From Roseospira navarrensis (GTDB lineage Bacteria; Pseudomonadota; Alphaproteobacteria; Rhodospirillales; Rhodospirillaceae): DNA of 64,000 bases. A program made the position numbers and the translations under genes. The DNA is taken from contig NZ_WIVE01000013.1 of the NCBI RefSeq assembly GCF_009601025.1, positions 1 to 64,000 on the forward strand, read 5' to 3'. Shown here piece after piece: positions 24,924 to 56,125 of the stretch (its first letter is position 1; every line of letters begins with the position of its first letter). The notes under the pieces are model-generated. The model was not told where the DNA came from. It did not search any database and worked only from the letters and a program-made list of their open reading frames with translations.

Positions 24924-24988
24924 TCCCGCTCGACCGAGCCGCGCGCCTCAAAGGGGCGCCGCGGCGAGAAAAACAAGAATCGGTGATG

Positions 24989-25075
24989 CCGGGCGGGCGT
25001 TGCACGCCCGCCCGGACCGTTGTCATCTCTATCCATTGGGCGAAACGGTTCGGACGGGGCTGCAAGCCCCGTCCG
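24989..25075 (+). repeat. Two-hairpin repeat R1, copy A
   Basis: Hairpin X has 12-bp arms (24989-25000 and 25004-25015) with loop TGC. A 35-base link contains TTGGGCGAAACGGTT. Hairpin Y has 11-bp arms (25051-25061 and 25065-25075) with loop GCA. The same arrangement occurs at 47251-47338 and 54856-54944. It lies between converging genes. Confidence 0.85.
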
Positions 25076-25115
25076 GCACACGGGAGGCGGGCGCACGAAA
25101 CCACCCCGAAGACAG

Positions 25116-25322
25116 GTAGGGCGCACTCGACCGCCGTAGCGCGGCGGGCAGTGCGCCGCGTGCGGGACGCCGGAACCCCCTCCCAACCTCCCCCATGAAT
25201 GGGGGAGGAGTCCGCGACCATGACACGCGACCGGACTCCCTCCCCATGGACTGTGGAGGGGTGGGGGTGTCTCGGGGGCCGCAACGGTCCGGAAACCACG
25301 AGACCCCGGTTTTCCGCGAAGA
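25116..25322 (+). repeat. Composite repeat R2, copy b
   Basis: The element opens with GTAGGGCGCACT and a nested hairpin (25120-25127 with 25150-25157). A CCTCCCCCAT/ATGGGGGAGG palindrome follows (25187-25196 with 25199-25208), then a GGAGTCCG/CGGACTCC pair (25207-25214 with 25232-25239). It closes with a tail matching copy a at 17937-18072 in reverse. It abuts a lone R1 hairpin, showing that repeat modules combine. Confidence 0.7.
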
Positions 25323-25335
25323 CCCAAAAAACGGT

Positions 25336-25362
25336 CCGGACGGGGCTGCAAGGCCCGTCCGG
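25336..25362 (+). repeat. Repeat R1, second hairpin only
   Basis: CCGGACGGG and CCCGTCCGG arms enclose GCTGCAAGG, nearly identical to hairpin Y of the full R1 copies but without hairpin X. It is 31 bases from the ppc stop and directly follows R2 copy b. It may be a module captured into the mosaic or a remnant of a full element. Confidence 0.75.
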
Positions 25363-25393
25363 CACACGCCGGTCTCCCCGTCCCCGCGCCCTG

Positions 25394-47038: not shown

Positions 47039-47130
47039 GCGTTTAGCCTCCCGGGTCGGGGAATGGGGTCAGGGGGACTTTCGGCCGAAAGCCCGAGTGC
47101 TCCGATCCGTCATACCTCTGATGAGAGCGC

Positions 47131-47404
47131 CGCTCCAGGCCGAACCGGGATCCGCTGCCGTGCCGGGTGGAGGGACTCGTCTCAGGCGACCCGCCCACCG
47201 TGTCCTCGCTGTCCAGAAAACCACCAAGGCACCAAGGTGGTGTCGTGATGCCGGGCGGGAGTTTCACTCCCGCCCCGAGCGTTATCATCCCCATCCGTTG
47301 GGCGAAACGGTCCGGACGGGGCTGCAAGCCCCGTCCGGCATGCAGAAAGCCTGTCCCTTCGACTCCTTGAGGTGCGTGAGGGCTGCGCTCCAGGCCGAAC
47401 CGGG
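47131..47404. repeat. Pair of 19-base direct repeats flanking an R1 element
   Basis: CGCTCCAGGCCGAACCGGG occurs exactly at 47131-47149 and again at 47386-47404, 255 bases apart start to start. R1 copy B sits between. The bases beyond each copy differ, so this is a short exact repeat, not part of a longer duplication. Confidence 0.8.
47251..47338 (+). repeat. Two-hairpin repeat R1, copy B
   Basis: Hairpin X has 10-bp arms (47253-47262 and 47266-47275) with loop TTC. The link again contains TTGGGCGAAACGGT. Hairpin Y has 12-bp arms (47312-47323 and 47327-47338) with loop GCA. It lies downstream of the last gene of the polyamine-type operon and upstream of lpdA. Confidence 0.85.
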
Positions 47405-53401: not shown

Positions 53402-53540
53402 GGGGACCCCCCTTGAGATCGGGACCGTGAGATCGGGACAGGCGGCGGAACGACAGCGGGCCGTCATCCCGGCGGACGAAAAGGTTGACCTTTTTGTCGA
53501 CCGGCCGGCCCGACTGGGCCGGCGCCGCGAAGCGGCGGAG

Positions 53541-53570
53541 GCGATGAACCGGACGAGTCCGGTTCATCGC
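53541..53570. repeat. Palindromic repeat R3, perfect copy
   Basis: Thirteen-base arms GCGATGAACCGGA and TCCGGTTCATCGC enclose CGAG with no mismatch. It lies in the gap between the transporter ATPase and the aminotransferase within one transcription unit. Related copies are at 17286-17315 and, partially, at 17925-17945 and 28471-28498. Confidence 0.75.
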
Positions 53571-53687
53571 CGCGCAGTATCAAAGGGCCAACGGCCGGCG
53601 GCGCGCCCGCCACGGCGGCCACTGGGTTTCCTCGCTCACGGCGCGCGGCAGGCGGTGCGGACCGATCCGGGTCATGATGACCGGCCC

Positions 53688-54815
53688 TTACGCATCGGCA
53701 TCGCCGTCGAGCAACACGCAGTCGTCGCCGCGCACGCGGATCCAGACCTCGCTGCCCTCGGGGAAGGGGGCGCGGTCGATGGGGTTGATGGCCTGCAGCT
53801 CCACGCCCGCCCCGGGGTCTCCGTCGGCCCCGGTGGTGGTCAGGAAGTAGCGCGCACTCTGGCCCAGGTAGTCCACGGTCTTGACCCGCGCGGTCATCAG
53901 GCTGGTGCCCGGGGCCGGGTCGTGGCGGTCGGCGAGCAGCAGGCGTTCGGCCCGCATGACCAGCCGCACGCGCTCGCCCTCCGGCCGGCCGGCGCGGTCG
54001 CGGGTGTGGCACAGGATGGTGGCGCCCGCGTCGGTGATGACCTTGACGAAGCCGCCCTCCTCGCCGGCCACCCGGCCGGGCAGGATGTTGGAGTGCCCCA
54101 GGAAGTCGGCGACGAAGGCGCTGGCGGGCTCGTTGTAGACCAGATCGGGCGGCCCCATCTGCTCGACCCAGCCGCTGTTCATGACCACTAGGGTGTCGGA
54201 CATGGCCAGGGCCTCCGACTGGTCGTGGGTGACGAACACGGTGGCGATGCCCAGTTCGCGCTGGATGCGCTTCAGTTCGACGCGCATTTCCTCGCGCAGG
54301 TTGGCGTCCAGCGCGGACAGGGGCTCATCCAGCAACAGCACATCCGGCTGGATGACGATGGCGCGCGCCAGCGCAATGCGCTGCTGCTGCCCGCCGGAAA
54401 GCTGGTTGGGGCGGCGGTCCTCCACATGCGGCAACTGCACGAGCTGGAGGGCGTCCTTCACCCGCCTCTTGACCTCGTCGCGGGGCACATCGCGGTACTT
54501 CAGGCCGAACGCCACGTTGTCGAACACGCTCTTGTGCGGGAACAGGGCGTAGTTCTGGAACACCAGGCCCAGGTTGCGCTTGTGGATCGGCACTTCGGTG
54601 ACCGACTTGCCCTTGATGCGGATGTCGCCCTCGGTCGGGTCCAGCAGCCCGGCGATCATGCGCAGCGTGGTGGTCTTGCCGCAGCCGGACGGCCCGAGCA
54701 GGGTGACGAACGACCCCTCCGGCACGGTCAGGTCGGTCTTGCGCACCGCCACGAACTCGGCGAAGCGCTTCTCCACGTCCCGCAGTTCGACGGCGTTCTG
54801 GTTGGCATCGGTCAT
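53688..54815 (-). CDS. potA: PotA-type polyamine ABC transporter ATPase
   Basis: This 375-residue ABC ATPase has Walker A GPSGCGKTT (41-49), the signature LSGGQQQR and Walker B VLLLDEPLSALD. A C-terminal TOBE domain contains ARVKTVDYLGQSARYFL. This architecture is that of PotA/PotG and related importers for putrescine or spermidine. The ATG at 54815 (MTDANQNAV) is used; a longer frame to 54911 begins inside repeat R1 and is not a real extension. It powers the two permeases encoded upstream. The 155-base gap to the binding-protein gene carries R1 copy C. Confidence 0.95.
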   Translation of the reverse strand: MTDANQNAVELRDVEKRFAEFVAVRKTDLTVPEGSFVTLLGPSGCGKTTTLRMIAGLLDPTEGDIRIKGKSVTEVPIHKRNLGLVFQNYALFPHKSVFDNVAFGLKYRDVPRDEVKRRVKDALQLVQLPHVEDRRPNQLSGGQQQRIALARAIVIQPDVLLLDEPLSALDANLREEMRVELKRIQRELGIATVFVTHDQSEALAMSDTLVVMNSGWVEQMGPPDLVYNEPASAFVADFLGHSNILPGRVAGEEGGFVKVITDAGATILCHTRDRAGRPEGERVRLVMRAERLLLADRHDPAPGTSLMTARVKTVDYLGQSARYFLTTTGADGDPGAGVELQAINPIDRAPFPEGSEVWIRVRGDDCVLLDGDADA

Positions 54816-54855
54816 GGGCGGTGAGTCCGTGGCGTCGTTGGTTTCGCCGTCATTG

Positions 54856-54944
54856 CCGGGCGGGAGTTGCACTCCCGCCCGGACCCGTTTCAGTCCGCAC
54901 CCGGTCGGCAAACGCTTCCGGACGGGGGTTCAACCCCCGTCCGG
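54856..54944 (+). repeat. Two-hairpin repeat R1, copy C, inside the transport operon
   Basis: Hairpin X has perfect 12-bp arms (54856-54867 and 54871-54882) with loop TGC. Hairpin Y has 11-bp arms (54918-54928 and 54934-54944) with loop TTCAA. The 35-base link is diverged but keeps a GGCAAACG core. It lies between the binding-protein and ATPase genes, where it could shape relative mRNA levels. Confidence 0.85.
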
Positions 54945-54970
54945 CCCGCGCAGGCAGACGAGCGGCTGCC

Positions 54971-56125
54971 TCAGTACCCCTTCTGGACGCGACCGAAGGT
55001 CTTGGACCAGTCGGCTTCGTTGCTGTTCCAGTAGTCGGGATCGAAGAAGTTCAGCGACTCCAGCGTGCCCGTCGGATCGAACGCCGGCAGCGAGGTCACC
55101 GACTCCGGCAGGTCCACCTTGTTCGGGTCCAGCGCCGGCGGGTAGTTCTGGCCCTCGGCGACCGCGATGGCGACTTCCGGTTCCAGCATGAAGTTCAGCA
55201 GCTCTTCGCAGGCGGCCATGGGGCTGCCCTTCATGACGAACAGGCATTCCTGCCAGGCGAGGCCGCCGGGCGGGTCCAGATAGCCGATGTCGTGGCCCTG
55301 CTCCTGCAGCGCCTTGACGCGGCCGGACCAGGCTTCGGTGACGTAGATTTCTTCCTCGGCGAGCAGGCTCATCAGTTCGGCGCCGGATCCCCAGTACTTC
55401 AGCAGCAGGTCGCGGTGCTCGCGCAGCTTGTCCCAGACGGCGTCCATGTCCTCGATGCCGTTGGGGTCCTGGTCGGTCTGCAGGGCGGCATACCAAATGC
55501 GGGTTTTCCACTCGCCCCAGCCGCCGATCTTGCCCTTGAACTCGGGCTTCACCAGCAGGTTCGCCCCAAGCTCTTTGGCCTCGTCGTCGCTGACGTGCTT
55601 GCGGTTGTAGGCGATGCCGGTGGTGCCATAGTCGTAGGGCGCGGCCGACAGGTTGCCGCCGGTGATCTTGCGGAACGGCGTCTGCAGCGTGCCGATGACC
55701 AGATCCAGGTTGGGGATGTTGGCCTCGTCCAGGGTCGTGGACAGGTCGAGGTTGTGATAGCGCGCGTAGTCGAACACGCCAGACAGGTGGGCGATGTTGA
55801 ATTCGCCGGGCTGGCTGGCGCGCACCCGGGCCAGGTATTCGTCGGCGCCGCCGAAGGTGCCGTCCACGACCTCAATCCCGGTCTTCTCGGTGTAGGGCTC
55901 GAAGGCGTATTCGCGGAAGGCCTCCGACACGACCCCGCCCCAGCCGTCGAAGCGCACCTGGTCGGGGGTCGCGGCGCGGGCCTTTCGGGACAGGGCCGCC
56001 ATCGGACCGCCGACGAGGCCGACGGACAGGCCGGCCGCCCCCAGCAGGGTCAGGAAGCCGCGACGGTCGATGTCGCCGTTGCGATAGCGCTCCAGCAGGC
56101 GCTGATACCGGGTCGTGTCATCCAT
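54971..56125 (-). CDS. potD: PotD/PotF-type polyamine-binding protein
   Basis: This 384-residue solute-binding protein has a Tat-like leader (RRGFLTLLGAAGLSVGLVGG, residues 21-40). A type II binding domain follows (SBP_bac_8-like) with DYGTTGIAYNRKHVS and NLDLVIGTLQTPFRK. The C-terminus is VQKGY. It presents the substrate to the permeases. The aromatic and acidic site residues of PotD cannot be fully aligned by eye, so the ligand may be a polyamine or another cationic amine. It sits between the second permease and the ATPase. The ATG has GAGGAGA upstream. Confidence 0.9.
   Translation of the reverse strand: MDDTTRYQRLLERYRNGDIDRRGFLTLLGAAGLSVGLVGGPMAALSRKARAATPDQVRFDGWGGVVSEAFREYAFEPYTEKTGIEVVDGTFGGADEYLARVRASQPGEFNIAHLSGVFDYARYHNLDLSTTLDEANIPNLDLVIGTLQTPFRKITGGNLSAAPYDYGTTGIAYNRKHVSDDEAKELGANLLVKPEFKGKIGGWGEWKTRIWYAALQTDQDPNGIEDMDAVWDKLREHRDLLLKYWGSGAELMSLLAEEEIYVTEAWSGRVKALQEQGHDIGYLDPPGGLAWQECLFVMKGSPMAACEELLNFMLEPEVAIAVAEGQNYPPALDPNKVDLPESVTSLPAFDPTGTLESLNFFDPDYWNSNEADWSKTFGRVQKGY

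Follow-up and report, generated by a model that had tools for sequence, protein, structure and literature searches.

The REP-based elements closest to the repeat considered here, which we call R1, fall into four described groups. The REPINs of Pseudomonas fluorescens and others are intergenic, inverted REP doublets of ~90 bp in which the link is less conserved than the REPs; doublets outnumber singlets and some tandem duplicates take in flanking DNA (PMC3116915). R1 shares each of these properties, with 42 full copies against about six partial ones, and differs in having no adjoining cognate RAYT, in its tag (AACGGT) and in halves that are of different types. The BIMEs of Escherichia coli also consist of an inverse REP pair with a linker, combine two REP types and are located on the 3′ side, between or after genes. 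In contrast to BIMEs, R1 lacks GTAG and the stem bulge, is restricted to a single genus and is present in tens rather than hundreds of copies.

The two tagged REP superfamilies (PMC3733652) offer further comparisons. With GTAG-tagged REPs, R1 has in common a tagged palindrome (stems of 5-13 bp in that superfamily), tail-to-tail dimers and heterodimers, occasional intragenic copies and placement between unidirectional or convergent genes; it differs in its AACGGT tag, and the genome also houses a true GTAG-REP family, found next to the RAYT. With CGTC-tagged REPs it shares the lack of a dedicated transposase and frequent heterodimers, but there is no CGTC tag, the stem is 12 bp rather than 8-9, the loop is 3 nt rather than 4-5, and the halves are arranged tail-to-tail rather than head-to-head. 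The general hallmarks of REPs and BIMEs, a palindrome of 20-50 nt in many intergenic copies and inverse pairs with a linker that rarely lie between divergent genes, are all found. R1 is thus a new, genus-limited REP-doublet family whose kind is already known and which, its unusual end tag aside, is ordinary.

The window analysed is a stretch of 64,000 nucleotides from Roseospira navarrensis (contig NZ_WIVE01000013.1, genome G000 below; G001 to G005 are congeners). A palindrome pattern matches it 12 times, with 0.07 matches expected. The features, all on the forward strand, are as follows.

24988..25077, +, R1 copy 1, full: A hairpin, 34-nt link and B hairpin (covariance model)
24989..25015, +, A palindrome of copy 1 (palindrome pattern, alignment)
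25050..25076, +, B palindrome of copy 1, an inverted REP preceded by the AACGGT tag
25336..25363, +, R1 half copy: B palindrome with AACGGT tag, A being lost or degraded
47122..47149, +, left-hand repeat of a 28-bp pair (direct duplication) around copy 2
47250..47339, +, R1 copy 2, full
47377..47404, +, right-hand repeat of the 28-bp pair around copy 2
54855..54945, +, R1 copy 3, full, with the B subtype GGGGTTCAACCCC

An earlier, sequence-only reading of this DNA had placed three full copies of a hairpin-link-hairpin repeat at these sites, and all three were recovered. The recurring order holds, but the two hairpins, which that reading lists as two types, are homologous REPs that face each other and not unrelated hairpins. 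The half copy is a fourth member in the window.

Copy 1 is situated where the genes for glutamine synthetase and PEP carboxylase converge. A short repeat (CGCGCGCCTCAAAGGGGCGCCGCGGCGA...; 24936-24984) with many occurrences across the genus directly abuts it. A GTAG-tagged palindrome (GTAGGGCGCACTCG...CAGTGCGCC; 25116-25161) with relatives in G002 and G003 lies beside it, and a repeat of ~160 bp (CCCCCTCCCAACCTCCCCCATGAATGGGGGAGG...; 25168-25331) is present in around 20 copies in the genome and in some in G003 and G005. Copy 2 lies between tandem minus-strand genes, with an M20 peptidase upstream and a pyridine nucleotide-disulphide oxidoreductase downstream. Copy 3 is intercistronic, separating a solute-binding protein gene (54971-56125, minus strand) from an ABC ATPase gene (53688-54815, minus strand). 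At 53466-53602 there is an interspersed repeat of ~70-135 bp that contains GGCGATGAACCGGACGAGTCCGGTTCATCGCC; it occurs many times in this genome and is also present in G001 to G004.

Alignment of 22 copies shows R1 to be two 27-nt REP-like palindromes, A (CCGGGCGGGAGTTGCACTCCCGCCCGG) and B (CCGGACGGGGCTGCAAGCCCCGTCCGG), inverted and tail-to-tail, each with a 12-bp stem and a 3-nt loop. Going outwards from the link, each half is built alike, a tag and then the palindrome, with the pattern 5′-AACGGT-CCGGRCGGG-loop-CCCGYCCGG-3′ and the tags inside. Among 84 half-elements, 44 have the tag AACGGT and ten AACGCT, and CGGT beside B is kept in most congener copies too, though their links differ. In many copies the ends of the link form an inverted repeat (ACCGTT...AACGGT), which identifies the A and B hairpins as homologous REPs placed face to face. 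At one stem position A carries G-C and B carries A-T in 38 of 42 copies, which makes the doublet a heterodimer. Such mixed pairs predominate in many REP families according to Di Nocera et al., who also discuss deletion of long hairpins (PMC3733652); in R1 the difference between A and B would weaken a single long hairpin. GTAG adjoins just one of 42 copies, on the outer side, and CGTC is near one of 42.

The variable part of R1 is the link, which is mostly 30-35 nt long but only 7-8 nt in three copies and as much as 86 nt in another. Each of the three short-link copies falls inside a gene or at its end, the genes being cobN, nuoE and one for an ABC permease. R1 is predicted to fold into two local hairpins and a weak, variable middle stem; a conserved middle hairpin in the link was considered and rejected, for although many copies have one it is weak and inconstant. 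Most copies have a core with sharp edges at GCC...GGC, beyond which the flanks differ. Modules of ~50-85 nt shared by the flanks of subsets of copies were likewise discarded as the true element ends, since most copies stop sharply at GCC...GGC.

The compensatory changes reported from the three window copies are real but sparse. Of 24 stem pairs, 12 are invariant and two show compensatory changes (four cells). The covariation score of 0.038 is small, though no shuffle or slid control reaches it, and covariation contributes -0.05 kcal/mol in RNAalifold. The earlier argument for selection on pairing carries little force, because the copies are too alike to bear it: the B halves are letter-identical in 22 of 42.

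A covariance-model scan of the genome and its relatives, as the sequence-only reading had proposed, found further copies and bears out its view of a genuine family with REP/BIME logic. There are 48 distinct loci in G000, most of them matched on both strands, R1 being nearly palindromic; 42 are full doublets and about six partial. The number of loci is a minimum, the assembly being a draft in 197 contigs. Exact matches to the palindrome number 73 genome-wide, and a reversed control has none. Derivatives include a 130-bp tandem duplication holding two copies (L018:3038-3254) and a copy with B deleted (L119). Numbers in the congeners are far smaller: four loci in G002, three in G003 and none in G001, G004 and G005. 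Across the order three of 297 genomes match, all in one genus of the 111 sampled. The twin-hairpin pattern had no match in databases of genome contigs and viral contigs, which may not include the genome that the window comes from. The family had not been recognised at first reading, and an Rfam scan of the window at gathering score returned two tRNAs only. A literature search of incomplete coverage found no earlier description.

The earlier observation that R1 lies after genes or between co-directional ones extends to the whole genome. Using a simple codon-based gene caller, 44 copies could be placed, 25 between convergent genes, 19 between tandem genes and none in a divergent gap; judged from the gaps of the window, the chance of this last result is 5e-5 by count and 3e-7 by length. 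With respect to tandem genes the A-to-B orientation is unbiased (8 same, 11 opposite). These properties, together with the lack of T-runs and of short target duplications described below, are those reported for REPs generally (PMC3733652).

Short target duplications are not evident at R1, flank matches having a mean of 2.44 as opposed to 2.59 in shuffled pairings. Longer direct duplications, shared by the two flanks and scoring at least 40, are found around seven of 45 copies and none of 70 control intergenic sites (P = 0.001), though most copies have none. Four appear local, of 55 bp (L022), 51 bp (L010), 30 bp (L037, cobN) and 28 bp (window 47250), with the caveat that parts of the L010 and L037 duplications find short matches at other places; in the remaining three, interspersed repeats or a duplicated protein domain are involved. 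The spans L022:2946-3208, L010:2830-3112 and window 47122-47404 carry duplications of adjacent DNA, gene ends included. Replication slippage at hairpins is our guess as to their origin.

Two orthologous sites were compared, and at both R1 is absent from the congeners. In the gap between the solute-binding protein and ABC ATPase genes (window 54816-54970; L215-L219) a full R1 is present in G000 only. The congeners carry other hairpin repeats there, a CCCTCCCC-type repeat in G004, a GC-rich palindrome in G005, GTAG-REPs in G002 and a second GTAG-type repeat in G003, where the region is divided between two contigs; nothing matched in G001. The fold z of these hairpins ranges from -2.5 to -7.8. 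The G002 gap may keep a relic of a B half (CCGGACGGGGGTTCACCC). The second site is cobN, which in G000 holds an in-frame, 63-nt, short-link R1 (L037:2969-3031) that is missing in G001, G002, G004 and G005. The same CobN loop in G003 (L227/L232) has an insert encoding VIARSAATKQS, which we take to be the translation of a CGTC-type REP; the four other congeners have neither insert.

A family of this structure, amplified in one species, absent from two orthologous sites and located in intergenic 3′ regions, is probably a non-autonomous mobile REP doublet, BIME- or REPIN-like, that is tolerated downstream of genes. One form of this explanation names the enzyme and makes R1 a true REPIN, moved despite its different tag by the resident RAYT, which would act in trans on two REP families. 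The look-up of a RAYT gene suggested in the earlier reading did find one, which is the single Y1 transposase gene found in the genome (NF047646, 198.5 bits; L025:1363-1890), but its link to R1 is doubtful. The gene is flanked by GTAG-REPs (GTAGGGCGGGTTCGCGCC...AACCCGCC) and not by R1, there is no R1 near the RAYT of G002 either, and we know of no transposase gene that R1 flanks. The RAYT of G000 is of a broad proteobacterial type; in a search of public genomes its closest relatives, mostly from Methylobacter and other Gamma- and Betaproteobacteria, share 62-68% identity. Within the six genomes RAYT is present in G000 and G002 only, one in each, and GTAG-REPs (both strands summed) number 23 in G000, 27 in G002, six in G003 and none in G001, G004 and G005. 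The joint absence of R1, GTAG-REPs and RAYT from these last three speaks for the resident enzyme, and is not a matter of simple ancestry, since G004, itself without R1, groups as sister to G000 in a tree of cobN. G003, which has no RAYT, has few of both repeats. In addition, Group 3 RAYTs tolerate some changes of tag in binding or cleavage, although RAYTs generally need the GTAG motif for full activity (PMC8266576), and 41 of 42 R1 copies have no GTAG beside them. Moreover from G002 to G000 R1 rises from four to about 45, whereas GTAG-REPs (27 and 23) and RAYT (one and one) do not differ in this way, so that the numbers are not coupled in detail. On this evidence we regard mobilisation by the resident RAYT as possible, yet doubtful. 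It is the only mobilising candidate found; an undetected or lost enzyme is about as likely. It is also conceivable, though we think it unlikely, that R1 represents a third tag class (AACGGT) of REP doublets, spread by a non-RAYT enzyme in a replication-coupled process that sometimes leaves target direct duplications of 28-55 bp, and competing with REP families unrelated to it for the same slots, in operons and in proteins, where insertions are tolerated.

Explanations that dispense with a mobile REP doublet fare less well. That R1 is a conserved bidirectional terminator or 3′-end RNA element, selected at each site and immobile, would suit its location downstream of genes, with 25 of 44 copies between convergent ones, its very stable hairpins and the other hairpin repeats that congeners carry in the same operon slot. 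However, the T-run that an intrinsic terminator would require is missing, TTTT occurring within 12 nt on none of 84 sides, and the ~90-nt cores are near-identical, links largely included, whilst being missing in most congeners. The in-frame copy in cobN and the absence of R1 from both orthologous congener sites are also difficult to reconcile with this idea, which we consider improbable. A classical MITE of a DDE transposon, with terminal inverted repeats, is less probable again; the GCCGG...CCGGC ends, small size and tens of copies are compatible with one, but target duplications are at the chance level given above and a look near R1, which was not systematic, met no full-length, transposase-bearing relative. 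Finally, the stable and conserved two-hairpin fold could suggest a structured non-coding RNA or a riboswitch. Against that, R1 is so near to palindromic that the model matches both strands, orientation is unbiased, divergent gaps hold no copies, covariation is weak and nothing in Rfam matches. We judge this highly improbable.

With R1 as a mobile REP doublet, the following course of events can be proposed. In single-stranded DNA the element would form two local 12-bp hairpins and a weak middle stem. An HUH (Y1) transposase acting in trans may recognise these hairpins, and R1 would then be copied to new sites, where insertions would survive mainly downstream of genes. Once transcribed, R1 should give very stable RNA hairpins, probably shielding the upstream mRNA from 3′ exonucleases and probably also limiting expression of the genes downstream. 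Such a barrier role in mRNA has been described in E. coli for REPs that separate a binding-protein cistron from transporter cistrons.

Two aspects of the family are of wider value. Unrelated REP families use the same sites across species, namely the gap between the binding-protein and ABC ATPase genes and the CobN loop, and through these shared slots one can ask if selection favours a hairpin at a particular position whatever its sequence. Since R1 is some tenfold more numerous in this species than in any congener, is lacking from its sister in the cobN tree and coexists with the only RAYT found, one that is flanked by a different REP, it also provides a compact system in which to test whether REP doublets need a dedicated RAYT.
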